From Ilumatobacteraceae bacterium (GTDB taxonomy: Bacteria > Actinomycetota > Acidimicrobiia > Acidimicrobiales > Ilumatobacteraceae): 40,599 nt of DNA. The position numbers and the translations under genes are program-made. Numbering within the stretch: position 1 is the first letter of the stretch; each line of letters starts with the position of its first letter. The stretch covers positions 1 through 40,599 of the forward strand of contig JAOBWQ010000330.1 of assembly GCA_025463425.1 (NCBI GenBank). The letters run 5' to 3'. Of the stretch, positions 25,815 through 38,903 are shown in pieces. The notes beneath the pieces were generated by a model. That model was not told where the DNA came from. It made no database searches and worked only from the letters and a program-made list of their open reading frames with translations.

Positions 25815-25950
25815 GATTGTCTACGCGTCTCCGTCCGTGTCTGACTTCGAACCAATTACGTGGTTCTTCACAGTGGCGCGACCGTCCCGGATTTACACCG
25901 GGTTCCAGCGGAGTGCGTGGGCGGACGTTAACACGCGGGATCACCCGGCA
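25815..25950 (-). promoter_or_regulatory. Cobalamin (B12) riboswitch upstream of cbtB
   Basis: Minus strand reads GGAACCCGGTGTAAATCCGGGACGGTCGCGCCACTGTG...GAAGTCAGACAC, matching B12-box and core conserved text. Boundaries approximate. Confidence 0.9.
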
Positions 25951-26881: not shown

Positions 26882-27705
26882 GCCGAGGGAACCGACGGTG
26901 TCAAGAAACGGTCCGTTTCATCGCGGGCAGCGACGATGGATGCTGCGGTCGGGGCCGCGATCCGCGACTGCGGCGGGGCGGGTGGTTGTGCGTCGTTCCA
27001 TCGGTCGGTCATGACGAGCTCGCCGAGCGGTCGACGTGCTGACCATCCGTGACGTTCCAAACCCGGCGCGAGCTGGCGTTCGTCCGGGTAGCCGACGCAC
27101 AACCAGCCGAGCGTCTCGACACCGTCGGGTACGCCCAGCAGCGAGGTGAGGTCTTCGGGTCGGAACAGCGTGACCCAGCCGACGCCGAGGCCACGGGCGT
27201 GTGCGGCGAGCCACACGTTCTGGATTGCACACGCACAGGACCACATGTCTGCGTCAGGGAAGGTGGCCCGCCCGAGGACGCCTGCGGGGTTGGTGCGTCG
27301 GCCGCAGCAGACGACGATCCCTATTGGCGCTTCACGGATGCCCTCGAGTTGGAGGTCGAGCAGCTGGCATGCCGATGCCTCGTCGAGCTGGTCTGCCTGG
27401 GTGAGGCGCTGTTGGTCGGCCAGCCATGCGGCGGTGGCGCGGGTCTGCGGATCGCGGACGACGATGAATCGCCATGGCTGGCTCTGTCCGACCGACGGTG
27501 CCTGGTGAGCGGCCACGAGTAGCTGATCGACGAGTGTTTGGTCGATGTCGTCGGGTCGGAAGCGGCGCACGTCGCGACGCGCAGCAACGACCGCGTCGAG
27601 TGCGTCTTGCTCGACGGCGGGGAAGGCCCACCCGGTTGGATCGTGGTGTCGCTCGGCGGCACTCGTGACGTCACCGATCAAGGGGACGGGCCGTTCCCGG
27701 CTCAT
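26752..27705 (-). CDS. bluB: 5,6-dimethylbenzimidazole synthase BluB (C-terminal tail resembles the CobT N-terminus)
   Basis: AVVAARRDVRRFRPDDIDQTLVDQLLVAAHQAPSVGQSQPWRFIVVRD...MWSCACAIQNVWLAAHARGLGVGWVTLF is BluB nitroreductase-fold text. Confidence 0.93.
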   Translation of the reverse strand: MSRERPVPLIGDVTSAAERHHDPTGWAFPAVEQDALDAVVAARRDVRRFRPDDIDQTLVDQLLVAAHQAPSVGQSQPWRFIVVRDPQTRATAAWLADQQRLTQADQLDEASACQLLDLQLEGIREAPIGIVVCCGRRTNPAGVLGRATFPDADMWSCACAIQNVWLAAHARGLGVGWVTLFRPEDLTSLLGVPDGVETLGWLCVGYPDERQLAPGLERHGWSARRPLGELVMTDRWNDAQPPAPPQSRIAAPTAASIVAARDETDRFLTPSVPSACWTEHSTGSSPTLVRRSHERRSSSSAATIQSPISASAHTRGR

Positions 27706-28487
27706 CGAAAGGGTTCTGTCGGGCCGGTCGGTGCTGTGGTCGTGTGGGCCCGTGGTGTGTACATCGACGACCCGGCGGGCCGGTCGAGCACCCGGGTCGT
27801 CGAGGAACCGATGACCACGATGGTGCTCATGTCGATCGAGTCCGGATCGAGTCGGGCGAGGTACGTGATGGTGACGGTCTCGTCGTTTCGGCCGACGTGG
27901 CGCCCGACGACGACGGGTGTGTGCGGGGCACGGTGCCGGGCGATGACCGCGATCGCGTCGGTGAACTGGTGGGGGCGGTGCACGCTGCGGGGGTTGTAGA
28001 GCGCGATGACGAAGTCGGCGGCGGCGGCTGCGTCGAGACGTCGCTCGATGATTGCCCATGGCTTGAGCACGTCGGACAGGGAGATCACGCAGAAGTCGTG
28101 ACCGAGCGGGGCGCCGACCCGGCTGGCGACCGCCTGCGCGGCGGTGATGCCGGGCTGCACATCGACGTCGACGTCGCGCCACAGGTCGGGGTGCGCGTCG
28201 AGCTGTTCGAGCACCGCGCTGGCCATCGCGAACACGCCGGGGTCGCCGGAGGAGACGACAACGACGTCGCCGCCAGCGGCTGCGAGGTCGAGCGCCTGGC
28301 GGGCGCGTTCACTTTCGACCCGGTTGCCGGACGGGTGCCGCCGTCCCGGGTGTGCCGGGTCGACCATCGCGAGGTAGGACGTGTACCCGACGAGATCCGT
28401 CGCGGCGGCGAGCCGCGCTGTGACGGCGGGCGTGCACCAGTCGGGGCGGCCGGGGCCGAGGCCCACGACGGTGACGCGGCCGTTCAT
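27702..28487 (-). CDS. cobJ: Precorrin-3B C17-methyltransferase CobJ
   Basis: MNGRVTVVGLGPGRPDWCTPAVTARLAAATDLVGYTSYL...VVSSGDPGVFAMASAVLE...ALYNPRSVHRPHQ. Confidence 0.95.
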   Translation of the reverse strand: MNGRVTVVGLGPGRPDWCTPAVTARLAAATDLVGYTSYLAMVDPAHPGRRHPSGNRVESERARQALDLAAAGGDVVVVSSGDPGVFAMASAVLEQLDAHPDLWRDVDVDVQPGITAAQAVASRVGAPLGHDFCVISLSDVLKPWAIIERRLDAAAAADFVIALYNPRSVHRPHQFTDAIAVIARHRAPHTPVVVGRHVGRNDETVTITYLARLDPDSIDMSTIVVIGSSTTRVLDRPAGSSMYTPRAHTTTAPTGPTEPFR

Positions 28488-29257
28488 CTGTCGGGCCGGT
28501 TGCGGGTGTCGAGCCCGGTGCCGGGGATGAGCACGAGCGAGAAGTACGGGGCGTCGATACCGGCGGTGTCGCCGAGGGGAACGACTCGCTCGGTCGCGCA
28601 GCTGGCCCGCTCGACGTACACGCCCTGCCCGGCGAGACCGACGGCGTTTGCTGCGTCGCGGACGTCGGCGAGGTGGCGGCCGACCTTCATGATCACGGCA
28701 GCGTCCGCGCCTGACAGGGCTTCTTTGAGCTGTGCGGGTGGCATCACTCCGGGCAGCACCGTGAGGGTCTCGTTCATCGAGACCAGCGGCACGCCTGCCG
28801 CCGCCGATGCGGCCGACACCGAGGTGACGCCCGGGATCACCGTGGTCCGGTAACGGCCGGCGAGGCGTTGGTGGATGTACATGTAGCTGCCGTAGAAGAA
28901 CGGGTCGCCCTCGCAGACCACGGCGACGTCGCGTCCGCGGTCGAGTTGGGCGGCGATGTCGTCGGCGCTGCGGTCGTAGAAGTCGGCGATCTGGCGTTCG
29001 TAGTCCGCGGGTTCGATGGCTTCGGTGGTGACTGGGTACTCGAGGCGCAGCACGGTCTGGTCCGCGGTGACGAGGTCTTCGATGATCGACCATGCGTTGC
29101 CGTGACGGCGGCGGGCGGCGAAGTGGGCGATGACAGGGCATGTCTTGACGGCTCGGTGTGCCTTGATGGTCATCAGTTCCGGGTCGCCCGGGCCGATGCC
29201 CACCCCGTACAGGTGGCCGACGGCAGATGTCGTCCGGTCGTTCACGGTGTCGGGCAT
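28484..29257 (-). CDS. cobI: Precorrin-2 C20-methyltransferase CobI
   Basis: GHLYGVGIGPGDPELMTIKAHRAVKTCPVIAHFAARRRHGNAWSI...CEGDPFFYGSYMYIHQRL. Confidence 0.96.
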   Translation of the reverse strand: MPDTVNDRTTSAVGHLYGVGIGPGDPELMTIKAHRAVKTCPVIAHFAARRRHGNAWSIIEDLVTADQTVLRLEYPVTTEAIEPADYERQIADFYDRSADDIAAQLDRGRDVAVVCEGDPFFYGSYMYIHQRLAGRYRTTVIPGVTSVSAASAAAGVPLVSMNETLTVLPGVMPPAQLKEALSGADAAVIMKVGRHLADVRDAANAVGLAGQGVYVERASCATERVVPLGDTAGIDAPYFSLVLIPGTGLDTRNRPDR

Positions 29258-29260
29258 CGG

Positions 29261-29890
29261 CTACTCCTTGCTGCTCGCGAGCGCGTTCACCGCGGCGGCC
29301 GCCATCGCGCTGCCACCGCGTCGTCCGTGCACGGTGAGGTAGGGGACGTGGTGGTCGAGGGTCGCCAGCGCGTGCTTGGACTCGGCTGCCCCGATGAAGC
29401 CAACGGGGATGCCGATGATCGCGGCCGGTTTCGCCGCGCCGTCGAGCACGAGCTCGAGCAGGCGGAAGAGCGCGGTCGGGGCGTTGCCGATGACCGCGAG
29501 CGCACCGTCGAGGTCGTCGAGCCAGCGGTCGACCGCGACGGCGGAGCGGGTGTTGCGTGCGGCGATGGCGTCGGTCGCGATGCCATCGTCGCGCAGCGCG
29601 CAGCGCACCGGGTTGCCAGCGGGGAGCCGGGTGCGGGTGATTCCGTGCGCGACCATGTTCGAGTCGCACCAGATGGTGCAGCCGTTGGCCAGCGCTTGGC
29701 GGGCCGCGTCGGCGAAGTCTGCGGATGCCTCGATGTGGCGGACGATGTCGACGTCGCCGCAGGCGTGGATGATGCGCACCGCTGCTGGTTCGAGGTCGGC
29801 GGCGATGCTCGACAGGTCGGCTTCCCGCCTGATCGTCGCGAACGACGCCGTGTAGATCGCTGCACCGTCGCGCTCGTAGTCGAGCCTCAT
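29261..29890 (-). CDS. cobH: Precorrin-8X methylmutase CobH
   Basis: MRLDYERDGAAIYTASFATIRREADLS...VRIIHACGDVDIVRHIEAS...IIGIPVGFIGAAESKHAL. Confidence 0.95.
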   Translation of the reverse strand: MRLDYERDGAAIYTASFATIRREADLSSIAADLEPAAVRIIHACGDVDIVRHIEASADFADAARQALANGCTIWCDSNMVAHGITRTRLPAGNPVRCALRDDGIATDAIAARNTRSAVAVDRWLDDLDGALAVIGNAPTALFRLLELVLDGAAKPAAIIGIPVGFIGAAESKHALATLDHHVPYLTVHGRRGGSAMAAAAVNALASSKE

Positions 29891-31059
29891 CGGAACGTCC
29901 CGCTCTCGTCGGCGACGAGCTGCCGCACGCCGGAGGGTGCGCCGCACTGCTTCGCGCACGCCGACAGGTGCACCCCGCCAGGTGTGCTATCGGTCGCCAC
30001 CAGCTCGGCCGCCGCGATGCCGGTGTCGGCGTGAGCCCACCAGCATCCAGCTGACCCGACGCATGCCGAGATCGCTGCTTTCGGGTCGTCGCGGTCCACC
30101 ACCAACCCGAGGTCACCGAGCTCAGTCATCAGCTGTTGGGCGGCCGACGACGGCAGGCCGCAGAACGCGAACGAATGGTCGGGCGTGAGGCGCAGATCAG
30201 CGGCGTGGGTGGCGGCAAGGCCTGCCAAGGCGATGAGCACCTGGTGGGTCACTCTCCCGAGGAACGGTGCGGCGACGACGTTCACCCTTTGTGCATGGGC
30301 ATGGGGCACCATGCCGAGGATCCTGCCTGCCACCAGCGGCGGCGTTGCGGCCCGGGTGACGTGGGCTGTGCTCGCGGCGAGCCGGGCCGCAACGGTTGCG
30401 ATCCCGGTGATTGTGACTAGCTGGTCCATCCGTATCTGCTCGTCGACGCACCACTGCGTGGCCGCGACGGCAGAGCCGACCGGATCGTCGGTGGATCCGA
30501 TGGGTGCCCGGGTACCGCGCACGCAGATTTGCCAACTGCCATCACGTGTGGCCCGCAGTGCGACGTCGGCGTCGAGCCCGTCGAGCGGCCAGCTGCCGCA
30601 GTCGTCGACGACAATGCCGAACTTGCTTGGCGCGTTGCCAGCGATGCCGTCGACGAGCCGGGCGACGAGCGCTGCGACGACCGGGCGGCTGTCACACGCG
30701 GCGGCCTGGTCGTGCCCGGTCAACGGGTTCGCGACCACTGCCCTGAAGGCTTCCCGGCCCGGGTCGGCGCCGGCGAGACCGGCTTCGACGGCGGCTGCGG
30801 TCGCAAGGTCCAGGCGGTGGGCGGCGACGCCGCGGATCTGCAGGTTGGCCCGCGAGGTGATGTCGACGATGCCGGACCCGAACTCACCGGCCAGTGCCGC
30901 CACCGAGGCCAGCGCCGACGAGGTGACGAGTCCGCCTGGCACACGGATGCGGAGCAGCCAGCCGTCGCCGGTCTCCATCGGGTCGAGCACGCCCGGGCAC
31001 CAGCCGCGGGTCAGGCCGCGTGCGGGCCGCGGCTCGAGGGCGGGTTCGGACATCGTCAT
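29887..31059 (-). CDS. cobG: Precorrin-3B synthase CobG (nitrite/sulfite-reductase ferredoxin-like)
   Basis: RGWCPGVLDPMETGDGWLLRIRVPGG, SRANLQIRGV, CVGSAGCWWA...HLSACAKQCG (Fe-S cysteines). Confidence 0.9.
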   Translation of the reverse strand: MTMSEPALEPRPARGLTRGWCPGVLDPMETGDGWLLRIRVPGGLVTSSALASVAALAGEFGSGIVDITSRANLQIRGVAAHRLDLATAAAVEAGLAGADPGREAFRAVVANPLTGHDQAAACDSRPVVAALVARLVDGIAGNAPSKFGIVVDDCGSWPLDGLDADVALRATRDGSWQICVRGTRAPIGSTDDPVGSAVAATQWCVDEQIRMDQLVTITGIATVAARLAASTAHVTRAATPPLVAGRILGMVPHAHAQRVNVVAAPFLGRVTHQVLIALAGLAATHAADLRLTPDHSFAFCGLPSSAAQQLMTELGDLGLVVDRDDPKAAISACVGSAGCWWAHADTGIAAAELVATDSTPGGVHLSACAKQCGAPSGVRQLVADESGTFR

Positions 31060-31129
31060 GACCGGCAACCTAGCAGTCACGTAGGGCACCCTGCCCTACG
31101 TGAAACTTGGAAGTTGCTAGGCTCGCCCG
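31060..31129. promoter_or_regulatory. Divergent cobG/cobO promoter region with perfect inverted repeat CACGTAGGGCA-CCC-TGCCCTACGTG (31078-31102)
   Basis: Perfect 11-bp arms. It is flanked by TGCTAGG on each strand, giving TANNNT-like -10 hexamers (TAGGCT 31118-31123 plus; TAGGTT 31072-31067 minus) 6-7 nt from each start codon. Confidence 0.75.
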
Positions 31130-31651
31130 ATGGCCCAGGCATCGCGCTTTCTGATCAACACCGGCACCGGAAAGGGCAAGACCTCGGCCTCGATGGGTGT
31201 CATGGGACGCAGCTGGGCGCGCGGATGGAGCGTGTGCGTGGTGCAGTTCATGAAGAGCGAGAAGTGGAAGGTCGGTGAGCGCAAACTGGCCGAGCACTTG
31301 GGCATCGAGTGGTTCACGCTCGGCGACGGGTTCACCTGGGAGTCGACCGATCTCGACGAGACCGCGGCCAAGGGGCGCCACGCGTGGGAGATCGCTGCGG
31401 AGAAGATCTCGAGCGGTGACTACGACATGGTCATCCTCGACGAGGCCACCTACATCGTGAAGTACGGGTGGATGCCGGTCGACGATTTGGTCGCGGTCAT
31501 CTCCGCCCGCCCGGCCCGCACCAACGTGGTGATGACCGGCCGTTACGCCGCTCCGGAGCTGATCGAGATCGCCGACACCGTGACCGAGATGACGAAGATC
31601 AAGCATGCGATGGACGCCGGCATCTCTGCCCGCAAGGGCATCGAGTACTGA
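31130..31651 (+). CDS. cobO: Cob(I)yrinic acid a,c-diamide adenosyltransferase CobO (BtuR type)
   Basis: INTGTGKGKTSASMGVMGRSWARGWSVCVVQFMKSEKWKVGERKL...VILDEATYIVKYGW. Confidence 0.96.
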   Translation: MAQASRFLINTGTGKGKTSASMGVMGRSWARGWSVCVVQFMKSEKWKVGERKLAEHLGIEWFTLGDGFTWESTDLDETAAKGRHAWEIAAEKISSGDYDMVILDEATYIVKYGWMPVDDLVAVISARPARTNVVMTGRYAAPELIEIADTVTEMTKIKHAMDAGISARKGIEY

Positions 31652-31653
31652 GC

Positions 31654-33027
31654 GTGCTGATCTCCTCGGGGTCGTCGCTTCCCGCCCGGCTGGTGATCGC
31701 AGGCACGCATTCCGGGGTCGGCAAGACCACAGTCGCCACGGGTCTGATGGCGGCGTTGCGACGCTGCGGGCATCGTGTGGGGGCCGCCAAGGTCGGGCCG
31801 GACTTCATCGACCCCGGGTACCACTCCATCGCGGTCGGTCGCCCGTCGCGCAACCTGGACATCTGGATGAGCGGTAGCGATGCCGTCGTGCCGCTCGCCG
31901 CACGAGCCGGCGCCGGGGCCGACCTTCTCGTCATCGAAGGGGTCATGGGCCTGTTCGATGGGGCCGGTGACGGCACCCCGTCGTCGACCGCCGACGTCGC
32001 ACAGCTGCTCGACGCGCCGGTGATCCTGGTGGTCGACGCTGCGTCGATGAGCCAATCGGTGGCCGCGCTCGTCCACGGGTTCGCGACTCTCGACCCTCAC
32101 GTGCGTGTCGCTGGGCTGGTGCTCAACCGGGTCGGCAGCCCGGGCCATGAGACGTTGCTGCGTGACGCCCTGGCCCCGTCGGGGATCCCGGTCCTCGGGG
32201 TTCTGATGCGGGACGAGCGGCTGGTGTGGCGCGATCGGCACCTCGGCCTGATCCCCGTCGCCGAACGCGGCGACGACGTCGCCGCTTCGATCGACGTGCT
32301 CGCCGAGCTGATCGCGGCGCGTTGCGATCTTGCCGCCATCGCCCGGCTCGCTGCGACGGCACCAGCCCGGCCAGCCGGCGCTGTGGCGATGCCCTCACCG
32401 GTCGCCGGCGGCCCGGTGCGCATCGCCGTTGCCGCAGGACCGGCGTTCAGCTTCACGTACCCGGACAACCTCGAAGCCCTCGCTGCTGCGGGCGCCGAGC
32501 TGATCCCGTTCGACCCGTGCGTCGACGCTGCGCTCCCGGCCCGGGTGCAGGGCCTCGTCGCCGGCGGCGGGTTTCCGGAGGTCTACGCAGCAGAGCTGAG
32601 CGCCAACACGGCACTGCTCGCAGACGTCCGTCAACTCGTCACCAACGGGCTGGTGACCTGGGCCGAGTGCGGCGGGCTGCTGTGGCTGTGCGACCAGCTC
32701 GACGGCATGCCCATGGCGGGCGTCGTGCACGCCCGCTCCACCATGACCCAGCGCCTCACACTCGGTTACCGCACCGCGACAAGCACCACCGCGACGCCAC
32801 TCGGCACGGCCGGGCTCGTCTTGCGCGGGCACGAGTTCCATTACTCAACGACCGATCCAGACGGCGACCTGTTCGCACTGGGCGGGCGGCACGGCGCCGG
32901 TAGCAGCGGCTTCGGGAACGACCGCATGGTTGCCTCCTACCTGCACACCCATCTCGGCGCCCGCCCGGACGTCGCTGATGCGTTTGTCCGCGCCTGCACT
33001 GCCCTACGTCTGCCCTACGCAAGCTAA
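31654..33027 (+). CDS. cobB: Cobyrinate / hydrogenobyrinate a,c-diamide synthase CobB
   Basis: LVIAGTHSGVGKTTVATGLMAALRRCGHRVGAAKVGPDFIDPGYHS...CGGLLWLCDQLDG. GTG start. Confidence 0.95.
   Translation: MLISSGSSLPARLVIAGTHSGVGKTTVATGLMAALRRCGHRVGAAKVGPDFIDPGYHSIAVGRPSRNLDIWMSGSDAVVPLAARAGAGADLLVIEGVMGLFDGAGDGTPSSTADVAQLLDAPVILVVDAASMSQSVAALVHGFATLDPHVRVAGLVLNRVGSPGHETLLRDALAPSGIPVLGVLMRDERLVWRDRHLGLIPVAERGDDVAASIDVLAELIAARCDLAAIARLAATAPARPAGAVAMPSPVAGGPVRIAVAAGPAFSFTYPDNLEALAAAGAELIPFDPCVDAALPARVQGLVAGGGFPEVYAAELSANTALLADVRQLVTNGLVTWAECGGLLWLCDQLDGMPMAGVVHARSTMTQRLTLGYRTATSTTATPLGTAGLVLRGHEFHYSTTDPDGDLFALGGRHGAGSSGFGNDRMVASYLHTHLGARPDVADAFVRACTALRLPYAS
33000..33019 (+). repeat. Tandem direct repeat TGCCCTACG-tc-TGCCCTACG immediately upstream of the RHH-methylase gene
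   Basis: Two exact 9-mers with 11-bp periodicity, within the last cobB codons. The same 9-mer forms the cobG/cobO palindrome. Confidence 0.8.
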
Positions 33028-33037
33028 GGTCGGAGCC

Positions 33038-33925
33038 GTGCACAAGTCGTCGATCTACCTGCCGGACGAACTGAAGCGGGACCTGGGCGAACTGGCGGCC
33101 CGCACCGGTCGTTCCGAGGCCGATCTCATCCGCCACGCCATTGAGCGACTGCTGGCCATCAGCGACACTCCGACGGCACCAGCCGCTGCCCCGATGCCCA
33201 TCCACCCGCGCCCCGCGCTGATCGGCGTCGGTGTCGGACCCGGCGACCCAGGGTTGGTCACCGAGCGAGCCCGGGCGACGCTTGCCAGCGCCGACCGGGT
33301 GCTGGTCATCACCACCGACGTCCGCTCCGTCGGCCGCGCCGAGATGGTCGTACGCTCCGTCGCTCCCACGGCCCGGGTGCAACGGGTGCCGTTCGCCATC
33401 AGCGGCGACGCCACGACACGCCTCGCGTCACTGCACAACGTCGCCGCCGAGGCACTCGCCGCGCTCGACGCCGGTGAGCTCGTCGCCGTCGCCGTCATCG
33501 GCGACCCCGCGCAGTGGACCATCTTCCCCGACCTCGCCGCACGCATGAGTGCCCTTCGTCCTTCGCTGCACGTGAGTGCCGAACCGGGCATCACCTCGTA
33601 TCAGGCCGCGGCCGCATCCGCCGGCACCGCGCTCGGGACGGCAGGCGGGGCGCTGGTCGTCCTCGACGACGCCACCGACTTGCGCCGGCACCTCAAGACC
33701 GGCGACGACACGGTGGTGCTCTACAAGGCTTCCACCGATGCCGATACGTTGAGGTCGGCCGCGGCGCGAGCTGACCGGCACGACGCCATCGTCGCCGAGC
33801 TCAGCGGGCTCCCCGGCCAACGCCTCAGCCCACTCGACGACACCCCGTCCGGGCCGATCTCCTACCTCGCCACGATCGTGTTCCCTGCGCGGCACCCCGT
33901 CGCTGTCACGTCGGTCTCGGCATGA
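33038..33925 (+). CDS. Ribbon-helix-helix (CopG-type) domain fused to a CobI-like tetrapyrrole (corrin/porphyrin) methylase domain
   Basis: GTG start: VHKSSIYLPDELKRDLGELAARTGRSEADLIRHAIERLLA (RHH), linker, then ALIGVGVGPGDPGLVTERARATLASADRVLVI...VIGDPAQWTIFPDLAARM...SAEPGITSYQAAAASAGTAL in one frame. Confidence 0.88.
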   Translation: MHKSSIYLPDELKRDLGELAARTGRSEADLIRHAIERLLAISDTPTAPAAAPMPIHPRPALIGVGVGPGDPGLVTERARATLASADRVLVITTDVRSVGRAEMVVRSVAPTARVQRVPFAISGDATTRLASLHNVAAEALAALDAGELVAVAVIGDPAQWTIFPDLAARMSALRPSLHVSAEPGITSYQAAAASAGTALGTAGGALVVLDDATDLRRHLKTGDDTVVLYKASTDADTLRSAAARADRHDAIVAELSGLPGQRLSPLDDTPSGPISYLATIVFPARHPVAVTSVSA

Positions 33926-34722
33926 TCTCCTTCGTCGGCGCCGGCCCCGGCGCACCGGACCTGATCACTCTGCGCGGCGCGCAACGACTCGCTGCCGCCG
34001 ACGTCGTCATCTGGGCCGCGTCACTCGTGCCCGAGGGGCTCCTGCAGCACTGCCGCCGGGACGCGATCCGCCACGACTCCAAGACCATGACGCTCGAAGC
34101 GGTGTGCGCTGTGTACGCAACCCATCCGGACTCCGCCATCGTGCGGCTCCATTCCGGCGATCCCACCCTCTACAGCGCGATTGGCGAGCAGATCGCCTGG
34201 TGCCGCCAGCACGGGCGCGACCACGAGATCGTGCCGGGCGTCTCCTCGATGAACGCGACAGCCGCGCTCGCCGGCTGCGAGCTGACCATCCCCGGCGTCG
34301 CCCAGTCCGTCGTGCTCACCCGCCTCGCGTCCGGCACCAGGGCCTCGATGCCCGACCGCGAGAGCGTCCAGGCCTACGCCGCGACGGGCGCCACCATGGC
34401 GGTGTTCCTCTCTGCGGGCCACGTCGACGACCTTGCCGCACGCCTCCTCGAGAGCGGCTCGGCGTACTCGGCAGACACTCCCGTCGTCGCCGGTCATCGC
34501 GTCAGCTGGCCCGACGAGCAGCTGCTGCGCACCACCGTGGGCGCGATGGCCGCCGACGTGTACGCTGCCGGCTTCGAGGCCACCACCCTGTTCCTGATCG
34601 GCCCCGCCCTCGCCGGCGCCACCGACCAACGCAGCCACGTGTACGCGCCCAGCTACACGACACGGTTCCGTCCCGCGATCGACGACCATCCCACAGTCAC
34701 CAGCGTTGCGGCACATGGCTGA
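33922..34722 (+). CDS. cobM: Precorrin-4 C11-methyltransferase CobM
   Basis: MISFVGAGPGAPDLITLRGAQRLAAADVVIWAASLVPEGLL...RLHSGDPTLYSAIGEQ...VPGVSSMNATAALAGCELTIPGVAQSVVLTR. Confidence 0.96.
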   Translation: MISFVGAGPGAPDLITLRGAQRLAAADVVIWAASLVPEGLLQHCRRDAIRHDSKTMTLEAVCAVYATHPDSAIVRLHSGDPTLYSAIGEQIAWCRQHGRDHEIVPGVSSMNATAALAGCELTIPGVAQSVVLTRLASGTRASMPDRESVQAYAATGATMAVFLSAGHVDDLAARLLESGSAYSADTPVVAGHRVSWPDEQLLRTTVGAMAADVYAAGFEATTLFLIGPALAGATDQRSHVYAPSYTTRFRPAIDDHPTVTSVAAHG

Positions 34723-35932
34723 GATCACCGCTCACGATGCGATGGTGTCCGTGGTCGGCGTGATCGGCGGTGAGGTGTTCGGCCCCGCCGCACGGGACGC
34801 GATCGCTGACGCCGACGTCCTCGTCGGGTCGCCCCGCCACCTCGCTTGGTTCGACCACGCTCGATCGAGCGCACACGAACGGATCGAGCTCGTCGGCCCG
34901 CTCCCCGCGTTGATCGACCGCATCGCCGGACACCGCGTCGCCGGTCACCGGGTGTGCGTGCTGTCCTCCGGGGATCCAGGCTTCTTCGGCATCACCCGGC
35001 TGCTCGCCGAGCGGTTCACGCCCCGCGGCCTCCGGGTGCTGCCGGCACCATCCTCGGTGTCACTCGCATGGGCGGCCGCTGGCACGACCTGGGACGACGC
35101 CGACGTCGTGTCGGCCCACGGACGGCCACTCGGCGATGCCGTCGAACAGGCGCTGCACTCACCGAAGGTCGCAGTGCTCACCGCCCCCTCCAACCCTCCC
35201 GAAACCCTCGGCAAAGAGCTCCTCGCCCACGGCTGCGGACCGCGCCAGGTGGTCGTCGCCAGCCGCCTCGGCGAAACCGACGAGCAGATCACGCATACCG
35301 ACGTCGACGGGCTCGCCGCCGGCCAGTTCGACCCGATGTCGGTCGTACTGCTCGTCGCCCCCAGCGCCGGAGTCACCGCACCGACGCTGTCGTGGGGACG
35401 CCCGGAAGCCGACTACGCCCACCGGGCAGGGATGATCACCAAATCCGAGGTCCGCTCGATCGTCCTCGGCAAACTCGACCTGCCCCGCGCCGGCGTGCTG
35501 TGGGACGTCGGCGCGGGCAGCGGCTCGGTCGGCATCGAGGCCGCCACCGTCGCCCCCGGGTTGCGGGTCTACGCCATCGAGCGCAGCACCGACGATGCCG
35601 CCAACATCGAGACCAACGCCCGCCTGGTTGGCGTCGCCGCCAACCTGGACGTCATCGTCGGCATCGCCGCCGCAGCCTTGGCCTACCTCCCCACACCGGA
35701 CCGCGTGTTCGTCGGAGGCGGCGGGCTCGACGTCGTCGAGGCATGCTGGCAGCGCCTGCGACCGGGCGGCGTCCTCGTCGCAACCTTCGTCGTGCTCGAC
35801 CGCGCCGTCGCCGCGATGCAACTGCTCGGCTCGATGGTCCAGATTCACGTCGACCGCGCCGTGCCGGTCGGCGGTGTCGGCATGCGCCTCGAACCCACCA
35901 ACCCCACCTTCGTTTGCTGGGGACAACGATGA
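34715..35932 (+). CDS. cobL: Precorrin-6Y C5,15-methyltransferase (decarboxylating) CobL (CbiE-CbiT fusion)
   Basis: CbiE-like VSVVGVIGGEVFGPAARDAIADADVLVGSPRHL and CbiT-like LDLPRAGVLWDVGAGSGSVGIEAATVAPGLRVYAIER. Confidence 0.94.
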   Translation: MAEITAHDAMVSVVGVIGGEVFGPAARDAIADADVLVGSPRHLAWFDHARSSAHERIELVGPLPALIDRIAGHRVAGHRVCVLSSGDPGFFGITRLLAERFTPRGLRVLPAPSSVSLAWAAAGTTWDDADVVSAHGRPLGDAVEQALHSPKVAVLTAPSNPPETLGKELLAHGCGPRQVVVASRLGETDEQITHTDVDGLAAGQFDPMSVVLLVAPSAGVTAPTLSWGRPEADYAHRAGMITKSEVRSIVLGKLDLPRAGVLWDVGAGSGSVGIEAATVAPGLRVYAIERSTDDAANIETNARLVGVAANLDVIVGIAAAALAYLPTPDRVFVGGGGLDVVEACWQRLRPGGVLVATFVVLDRAVAAMQLLGSMVQIHVDRAVPVGGVGMRLEPTNPTFVCWGQR

Positions 35933-36321
35933 CACCACCCGGCCTGCCAAACCCCAAGAACGTCGTGCTCGGCATCGGCCTTTCCTCCCTGGCCACCGCC
36001 GACGAAGTGCGTGCACTCGTGCGCCACGCGCTCAGCGACCGCCACCTCGACCTCGCCGACGTCTGCCTCGTCGCCACCCGCGACCGGTTCGTCCACGACC
36101 GGCGCGTCAACCTCGGCGTTCCGGTCTATGGCATGACCGACGAACGCCTCGTCGCCGCCTCCGCCCCCTGCACGCGACCGGTCGGCCTGCAGGCACGCGT
36201 CGCCGAGACCGCTGCGCTGCTCGCCGCCGGCAGCCGCGACGCGCTGATCGGTCCCGTCGAACGCTCCGCACACGCCACCGTCGCCGTGGCTCAGCGCCGA
36301 CCCGGTGGAGTGCGACTGTGA
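35929..36321 (+). CDS. cobE: CobE / CbiG C-terminal-domain protein
   Basis: VVLGIGLSSLATADEVRALVRHAL...FVHDRRVNLGVPVYGMTDERLVA, between cobL and cobA. Confidence 0.8.
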   Translation: MTPPGLPNPKNVVLGIGLSSLATADEVRALVRHALSDRHLDLADVCLVATRDRFVHDRRVNLGVPVYGMTDERLVAASAPCTRPVGLQARVAETAALLAAGSRDALIGPVERSAHATVAVAQRRPGGVRL

Positions 36322-37040: not shown

Positions 37041-37987
37041 CCACACGTACTCCCGGCGCACAGACCGGCATCCCACCCTCCGGCAGCCACGGCGGAGACG
37101 GCGCGAGAGTCGCCGCCGCGCTCGGCATCGACCCCGCGTCGATGATCGACCTCTCGGCCAGCATGAACCCGTTCGCCCCCGATGTCGCCGCGCTGCTCGC
37201 CGACCTGCTCCGCCGAGCAGGGTCCGCCGTGCACCGCTACCCCGATCCCACTGGCGCGACCATCGCGCTCGCCGATGCGATCGGCGCTGACGCCGACCAG
37301 CTCGTGCTCACCAACGGCGGCGCCGAAGCGATCGCGCTCACCGCCGCACACCTCCGAGTCGGCAACGTCATCGAACCCGAGTTCTCCCTCTACCGCCGCC
37401 ACCTGACCGCCGTCGATCCCGCCGCGGCCAGGTGGCGCTCCAACCCCTCCAACCCACTCGGCCAGCTCGCCGCACCCGAAGACACTGCCGGCGTGTGGGA
37501 CGAAGCCTTCTACCCCATCGCCACCGGACGATGGACCCGAGGCGACGCTGGCGCGTGGCAGCTGGGCTCGCTCACCAAGCTGTGGAACTGCCCCGGTCTG
37601 CGGCTCGGCTACGTCATCGCACCCACCGCCGACGAAGCGCACGCAATCCGTCACCGCCAACCCCGCTGGTCGGTCAACGGCCTCGCCCTCGCCGCGCTCC
37701 CCGAACTGCTCGCCGTCACCGACCTACCCAGCTGGTCGGCCCAGATCAACACTCTGCGGCACGGGTTCGCAACGGCGCTGCGCGGAGTCGGTTTCCACGT
37801 CACCGACACCGACTCCAACTGGCTCCTCGTCCACCACGCCAACCTTCGCGTCACCCTCGCCGGGCACGGCGTGCTGGTCCGCGACTGCTCCACGTTCGGA
37901 CTTGCCGGCGTCCACCGGGTCGCGCTCCCCCCGCCCCACCACTTCGACAGAGTGCTCGAAGCGTTCGCCTCCGTCCACGCACGATGA
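37037..37987 (+). CDS. cobC: CobC / L-threonine-O-3-phosphate decarboxylase-like PLP aminotransferase
   Basis: GGDGARVAAALGIDPASMIDLSASMNPFAPD...WQLGSLTKLWNCPGLRLGYVIAP (PLP lysine region). Confidence 0.9.
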   Translation: MTTRTPGAQTGIPPSGSHGGDGARVAAALGIDPASMIDLSASMNPFAPDVAALLADLLRRAGSAVHRYPDPTGATIALADAIGADADQLVLTNGGAEAIALTAAHLRVGNVIEPEFSLYRRHLTAVDPAAARWRSNPSNPLGQLAAPEDTAGVWDEAFYPIATGRWTRGDAGAWQLGSLTKLWNCPGLRLGYVIAPTADEAHAIRHRQPRWSVNGLALAALPELLAVTDLPSWSAQINTLRHGFATALRGVGFHVTDTDSNWLLVHHANLRVTLAGHGVLVRDCSTFGLAGVHRVALPPPHHFDRVLEAFASVHAR

Positions 37988-38903
37988 CCGCGCTCGCGGC
38001 AACAGTAGGCGGCCTCGCAGACCAGATGTTCGGTGAGCCAGCACTGCGCTGGCACCCCGTTGCCCGCTACGGGTCGGTCATGCAACACATCGAACGACAC
38101 GTCTACGCCGACCGGCGCGTCAACGGCATCGCCTTCACCGCCATCGGCGCCGGGCTCGGCATCGGCACCGGCCTCGTGCTGCGCCGCGCTATCGGACCGG
38201 CCCTCGCCAGCGTCGCGGCCACCTGTATGAGCGCGGCTGGCAAGATGCTGGAGGACGAAGCCGTCACCATGGCCGGCCTGCTGACCGCCGGCGACCTCCC
38301 CGCAGCCCGGCAGCGCGTGATCTCCCTCGTCGGGCGAAACACCGATCACCTCGACGAGCACCAGATCGGCCGCGCCGTCATCGAGTCCGTCGCCGAGAAC
38401 TGCGTCGACGCCGTCACCTCGTCGGTGTTCTGGGCCGCCATCGGCGGTGCGCCGGCCGTGCTCGCCCACCGGGCCGTCAACACCCTCGACGCGATGGTTG
38501 GCCACCGTGACGAACGTTACGAGCACTTCGGCTGGCGAGCGCCCGCCTCGACGACGTCGTGAACTACGTCCCGGCACGGCTCACCGCGCTCGCCGTAGCG
38601 CTCGTCACCCCGACCCGCGCGCGGACGATACTCAACGTGATCCGCCGCGACGCGTCCCGCCACGCGTCACCCAATGGTGGCGTCGTCGAAGCTGCCTTCG
38701 CCGCTTCGCTCGGCGTGCAGCTCGGTGGCATCAACCATTATGGGGGCGAGATCGAGGACCGCGGCACCCTCGGCAATGGCCCGCCACCAGATGCGAGCGC
38801 CATCGCCGCTGCCGTCCGCCTCCGCCGCACCGCGACAGCGATGACGGCCTCGCCTCCTCCTCACACCTGGAGCCCTCGTTCAGCTACTGAGGCGGCGGAG
38901 TAG
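37984..38903 (+). pseudogene. cobD: Adenosylcobinamide-phosphate synthase CobD/CbiB, single-base frameshift near 38533
   Basis: MTALAATVGGLADQMFGEPALRWHPVARYGSVM...NTLDAMVGHRDERYEHFGW; the expected (A)SARLDDVVNYVPARLTAL continues in another frame. Confidence 0.88.

Follow-up and report, generated by a model that had tools for sequence, protein, structure and literature searches.

The window, by which we mean the whole 40,599-nucleotide stretch of Ilumatobacteraceae DNA analysed here, contains a complete aerobic cobalamin cluster, and within it a gene that joins a ribbon-helix-helix (RHH) DNA-binding domain to a tetrapyrrole methylase. One strand encodes CobN, CobQ, CobK, CbtA, CobT, BluB, CobJ, CobI, CobH and CobG, the opposite strand CobO, CobB, the fusion protein, CobM, CobL, CobA and CobC; CobF is also present. 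CobI, CobJ, CobM, CobL, CobF and CobA were all found as separate proteins, so that no methylation step is left unfilled, as the initial annotation of this DNA had stated, and the canonical cobI beside the fusion makes the fused methylase domain redundant in the window. The genes and domains around the fusion are as follows.

27702..28487, minus strand: cobJ, presumed target (TIGR01466, 283.7 bits; start approximate)
28484..29257, minus strand: canonical cobI, presumed target (PRK05990, 328.5 bits, above cut-off; in a clade apart from the fusion)
29261..29887, minus strand: cobH, presumed target (PRK08285, 301.5 bits; start approximate)
29887..31059, minus strand: cobG, presumed target, which opens the divergent aerobic block (TIGR02435, 225 bits)
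31130..31651, plus strand: cobO, corrinoid adenosyltransferase, first gene of a presumed target operon (PF02572, E 5e-61)
31654..33027, plus strand: cobB, a,c-diamide synthase, directly upstream of the fusion (PRK01077, E 2e-144; start set by eye)
33038..33925, plus strand: RHH-methylase fusion gene with GTG start (open frame of 295 aa; Pfam domains; 35 homologous fusions)
33050..33157, plus strand: RHH (CopG-type) DNA-binding domain, residues 5-40 (PF01402 match; AlphaFold helices)
33218..33889, plus strand: proposed sensor, a tetrapyrrole methylase domain of CbiL type spanning about residues 61-284 (PF00590, TIGR01467, tree, CbiL structures)
33922..34722, plus strand: cobM, overlapping the fusion stop (TIGR01465, 270.8 bits, above cut-off)
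34706..35932, plus strand: cobL (CbiE+CbiT)

Two stretches of the cluster have no Pfam match: a 308-aa frame between cobC and cobF (37651-38577, minus strand), which overlaps cobC on the other strand and parts of which are conserved next to cobC in several relatives, and about 240 residues in frame before the CobA domain (35595-36320, plus strand), which may be a frame extension only. A cobalamin riboswitch (RF00174, 32.9 bits) lies at 25815-25945 on the minus strand, upstream of cbtA. The biosynthetic promoters with the RHH sites described below showed no such element, and riboswitch control of them was therefore rejected; in the window, cobalt transport and cobalamin biosynthesis seem to be controlled in different ways.

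The joint of both domains in one frame was confirmed by Pfam. Residues 5-40 match RHH_1 (PF01402; E 9e-7, 29.1 bits, above the gathering score of 20.5), within the first 40 residues for which such a domain had been claimed, and residues 61-263 match TP_methylase (PF00590, E 1e-28). An AlphaFold model of the protein shows helices at residues 10-23 and 27-43, with pLDDT values of 80-96 for the RHH, and a CbiL-like fold with 8xj3, 2e0k and 2qbu as the nearest solved structures; the model derives from a shallow alignment of window proteins and related loci, and its unreliable C-terminal half was not used to judge the active site. Translation from the GTG ahead of the RHH is backed by a -10-like TAAGGT that starts 13 nt upstream, a geometry (12-14 nt) common to 27 of 33 operator-bearing fusions. 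The methylase keeps the motifs GxGxG, GRAE and GDP and, as first noted, reads GDPAQWTIF at residue 155. Its score of 122 bits against TIGR01467 (cobI_cbiL), the best NCBIfam model, is below the cut-off of 163.25, which by score sets it outside the CobI/CbiL equivalog.

Conservation of the fusion, which the initial annotation had suggested checking, proved to be wide: the RHH-methylase joint recurs in 35 genes of 33 genomes, from 18 family codes within one class, perhaps Acidimicrobiia, and for the most part drafts, and is thus more than a chance association. Full-length fusions were found in the genomes G000, G023, G019, G024 and G046, then in many further families of the order, and also in families outside the order but inside the class. 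A phylum-wide draw of 396 genomes gave unfused relatives only and no fusion outside the class, and plasmid records gave no match. The unfused relatives occupy the same operon slot (cobO-cobB-cobI-cobM). Two genomes, G349 (L079/L080) and G100 (L074/L075), have two fused copies each, of which the L075 copy appears frame-shifted.

The fusion gene of the window is preceded by a repeat within the end of cobB and by a putative promoter.

33000..33020, plus strand: proposed operator O1 in the cobB 3' end, TGCCCTACGT C TGCCCTACGC (direct repeat, period 11)
33025..33030, plus strand: -10-like TAAGGT with its first T 13 nt from the GTG, assigned to a presumed leaderless promoter of the fusion

Upstream of 33 of the 35 fusion starts, (G/A)CCCTACGT is repeated directly every 11 or 12 bp (on the other strand in two of the 33), whereas none of 25 unfused or canonical homologues is preceded by a tandem CCCTACGT repeat; the motif had first been derived from the same loci. 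Five fusions from outside the order, which were read once the motif was defined, all carry the tandem site. Genome-wide pattern searches in 27 fusion genomes returned 24 tandem sites, all but two at a fusion start; the two extra sites (G349:C241 and G334:C168) have no recognised cobalamin gene nearby and were treated as chance. The window was scanned for half-sites, since its period is 11 and not 12, and its O1 is the only exact copy in the genome. In 27 of the 33 operator-bearing fusions the start codon is preceded by a TANNNT hexamer that starts 12-14 nt ahead of it, as would be expected of leaderless transcripts; in 13 of these the second half-site itself supplies the hexamer as TACCCT. The position of these -10-like boxes implies that the operators overlap promoters, the promoter calls being consensus-like.

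The two fusions without a tandem site at their start belong to G046 and G417. In the former (L070, 9025-11470) the fusion follows cbtA, and a cobalamin riboswitch precedes both; G417 (L096), which has no tandem site at the fusion start (4053), keeps the cobG/cobO palindrome described below (2056-2078). In six loci (L074, L075, L076, L077, L079 and L080) cobF and the fusion operon lie on either side of the operator and point away from each other. CbiD was not recognised between cobM and cobL despite the presence of CbiG-CobJ (checked in L074), and these loci may encode a hybrid route with CobF in the place of CbiD.

The form of the putative operator connects it to antitoxin-type RHH proteins, on a comparison of few loci. 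The closest stand-alone RHH proteins retrieved by a peptide search precede PIN-domain genes in both loci tested (L011 and L017), which is the arrangement of VapB antitoxins, and four antitoxin genes with a similar RHH have (C)GTATGGC-type direct repeats with an 11-12 bp period upstream (L012, L017 and L019 by scan, L011 by eye). Read on the opposite strand, the fusion half-site is CGTAGGGC, one base off the antitoxin repeat CGTATGGC.

A second proposed operator lies between the divergent cobG and cobO genes, flanked by a -10-like box on either side.

31067..31072, minus strand: -10-like TAGGTT of cobG, 13 nt before the ATG (31059) (sequence; geometry shared by relatives)
31079..31101, no strand assigned: proposed operator O2, palindrome ACGTAGGGCACCCTGCCCTACGT between cobG and cobO
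31118..31123, plus strand: -10-like TAGGCT of cobO, 12 nt before the ATG (sequence; geometry shared by relatives)

Besides O1, the only exact copies of TGCCCTACG in the window are those forming this palindrome. The other aerobic-cluster genomes have the same palindrome at cobG/cobO, with half-sites 14 bp apart; in G019 it lies, together with the canonical cobI, on a different contig from the fusion. It is absent from fusion-only and unfused loci, among which L104 has one weak pair of other geometry. An order-wide scan of 397 genomes found 20 palindromes, nine of them beside cobG, where cobG was accepted only for frames of about 400 aa or beside cobO/cobH, as the CobG search was swamped by sulfite and nitrite reductases; the sites of G023, G019, G493 and G466 come in addition to these nine. 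The remaining 11, away from cobG, lie near no recognised cobalamin gene and were treated as chance. Of the nine genomes with a palindrome beside cobG, the fusion is present in seven; in G397 its methylase part lies at a contig edge, and in G098 an RHH match in C318 has no methylase after it. The genome G196 is a natural control: it shares the divergent cobG/cobO arrangement, but cobM comes directly after cobB, the fusion is missing, and the cobG/cobO promoter lacks CCCTACGT.

A conserved putative operator at both the fusion and the cobG/cobO promoters, present where the fusion is present, speaks strongly for the initial proposal of a regulator of cobalamin synthesis, and on this sequence evidence the fusion is very probably a DNA-binding local regulator. 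That another, unlinked regulator occupies the CCCTACGT sites and the RHH does not bind DNA is highly improbable, given that the sites track the fusion across families, are absent from G196 and unfused loci, and resemble repeats ahead of similar RHH genes.

The methylase domain has a different ancestry from the CobI next to it. In a tree of 57 methylase domains, all fusions and their unfused relatives fall into a CbiL-type clade, which is set apart from a canonical CobI clade with 100/100 support. The label "CobI-like" is imprecise, since the domain groups with CbiL-type enzymes rather than with the CobI of the window. Its description as surplus fits the aerobic lineage of the window, but in most relatives the fusion is the sole enzyme for this step: in all 15 fusion-only genomes tested, and in G024 and G046, it is the only CobI/CbiL and scores above the TIGR01467 cut-off. 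Fusion-only clusters mostly have CbiD, and CbiG fused to CobJ, alongside, both hallmarks of the anaerobic route. A CbiL-type lineage in which the fusion is mostly the sole enzyme suggests that this architecture was a putative enzyme-regulator from its origin and turned surplus later, in the aerobic lineage alone.

The 11 fusions from genomes with an aerobic cobG block form one clade (100/98), and seven of them, including that of the window, sit on a long stem (0.60) and score 96-123 bits against TIGR01467. More broadly, scores exceed 166 bits in fusion-only genomes, compared to 96-125 bits in the window's clade and G019. In the seven window-clade fusions a W replaces the Y of GDPNxYSTF or GDPLxYSTF, and in G234 the P is changed too. 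G493 and G466 represent an intermediate state, with a canonical CobI, an unaltered GDPNVYSTF and about 147-149 bits (the G493 stretch scanned lacked the C-terminus). The altered catalysis claimed from the motif is thus plausible in view of the sub-cut-off scores and the change from Y to W or F after GDP in the window's clade; however, G493 and G466 keep GDPNVYSTF beside a CobI, and the fusion-only G113 has a W at the Y position without one, so that the motif alone is no proof of lost activity. Within the seven window-clade fusions the RHH is 72% identical and the methylase 51%, a trend that is reversed in the fusion-only group (57% and 60%). Canonical CobI proteins of aerobic-cluster genomes share 64% identity, i.e., the window-clade methylase diverges faster than the CobI of the same genomes. 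It is nevertheless under purifying selection, with a dN/dS of about 0.16-0.2 in the one close pair measured.

Three other readings of the window fusion bear on these data. It could be bifunctional, a still active C20-methyltransferase and second isoenzyme whose RHH only autoregulates its own operon; the retained GxGxG, GRAE and GDP motifs, the purifying selection, and the fact that fusion-only relatives must be active if cobalamin is made would agree with this. We nonetheless regard it as unlikely, as a canonical CobI is present, all window-clade members tested score under the cut-off, their methylase has diverged more quickly than CobI within the same genomes, and G196 manages without a fusion. 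Still less probable is a ligand-blind autorepressor, in which the methylase is a dimerisation scaffold only and the protein sets its expression level like an antitoxin repressor: the RHH is of antitoxin type and, in the window's clade, more conserved than the methylase, which however retains its SAM-site motifs and is still under purifying selection. A low methylase score and faster evolution might even suggest a decaying duplicate without function, a reading we consider barely conceivable, since it is contradicted by the conserved fusion and operator, the intact frames, the dN/dS in the pair tested and an RHH conserved across 18 family codes.

The reading we favour, and consider likely, is that of a repressor acting locally on cobalamin synthesis, with a repurposed CbiL-type methyltransferase as its sensor. 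The RHH domain would bind CCCTACGT elements overlapping promoters, namely that of its own gene via the direct repeat, and those of the divergent cobG-cobH-cobI-cobJ and cobO-cobB operons via the palindrome. We infer that RHH dimers over these promoters repress, rather than activate, by occlusion. The methylase domain has most likely kept a binding site for precorrin-2 or cobalt-factor II and/or for SAM or SAH, the choice of ligand being a guess, and its occupancy would shift the DNA affinity, so that the cluster could follow the supply of its own early intermediate. Ligand sensing by this domain seems rather probable, although with less assurance than local regulation through DNA binding as such. 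In fusion-only relatives, one protein is probably enzyme and autoregulator at once, with turnover coupled to repression in the manner of PutA. In the window's lineage, with its cobG-H-I-J block and a CobI of its own, the fusion may now mainly be a sensor, and the chance that the window copy is a dedicated sensor without activity appears slightly better than even. For the complete scenario the balance is about even: an undescribed regulator family in which CbiL and an antitoxin-type RHH formed a self-regulating enzyme, which in the aerobic lineage with its own CobI turned into a sensor dedicated to an early corrin intermediate or SAM, controlling the aerobic operons through a new palindromic operator.

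The genomes display apparent stages of a transition from enzyme to regulator, from fusion-only genomes through genomes with both enzymes and an unaltered motif (G493 and G466) to a drifted enzyme domain, and also G196 without a fusion. The proposed operators are short, specific and directly testable. Within the coverage of our literature search, outside of which subscription journals lie, we found neither a description of an RHH joined to cobalamin biosynthesis nor of a tetrapyrrole methylase fused to a DNA-binding regulator.

Among known systems, the closest parallel is PutA, in which an N-terminal RHH on proline catabolic enzymes unites enzyme and autorepressor in one chain that regulates neighbouring pathway genes. 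The fusion likewise has an RHH and an enzyme in one chain, and putative operators at its own and neighbouring pathway promoters. In contrast to PutA, it has a SAM-dependent TP_methylase instead of proline dehydrogenase and aldehyde dehydrogenase domains, belongs to biosynthesis and not to catabolism, and in the window's lineage its enzyme domain looks replaced by a separate CobI. CbiL/CobI, the precorrin-2 (cobalt-factor II) C20-methyltransferase, is homologous to the fused methylase, which is the sole such enzyme in fusion-only genomes, but the fusion adds an N-terminal RHH and an operator, and the window copy scores below the family cut-off beside a second, canonical CobI. With VapB-type RHH antitoxins the fusion shares the closest stand-alone RHH sequences and similar upstream repeats of 11-12 bp period; unlike them, it has no adjacent PIN toxin gene, the next gene being cobM, its operator differs by one base, and its output is the cobalamin pathway. 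MetJ is also an RHH repressor tied to SAM chemistry, with SAM as co-repressor. It has been described as the only SAM-binding RHH protein known as of 2005 (PMC1282579). MetJ, however, binds SAM in the RHH dimer itself, whereas the fusion would use a separate methylase domain and has cobalamin genes as its putative targets.

Where the control of B12 synthesis genes is known, it is exerted mostly by cobalamin riboswitches, which sense the end product. Such a riboswitch (RF00174) controls B12-related genes, as the fusion would, and one lies near cbtA in the window, but it is RNA-based and missing from the promoters with RHH sites. In many members of one class, control of these biosynthetic promoters seems to lie with a protein derived from an early enzyme of the same pathway; such a protein could detect an unstable intermediate within the pathway itself. 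Judged from its genes and candidate operators, the fusion points to an undescribed kind of B12 regulator, the sensor of which is a former pathway enzyme.
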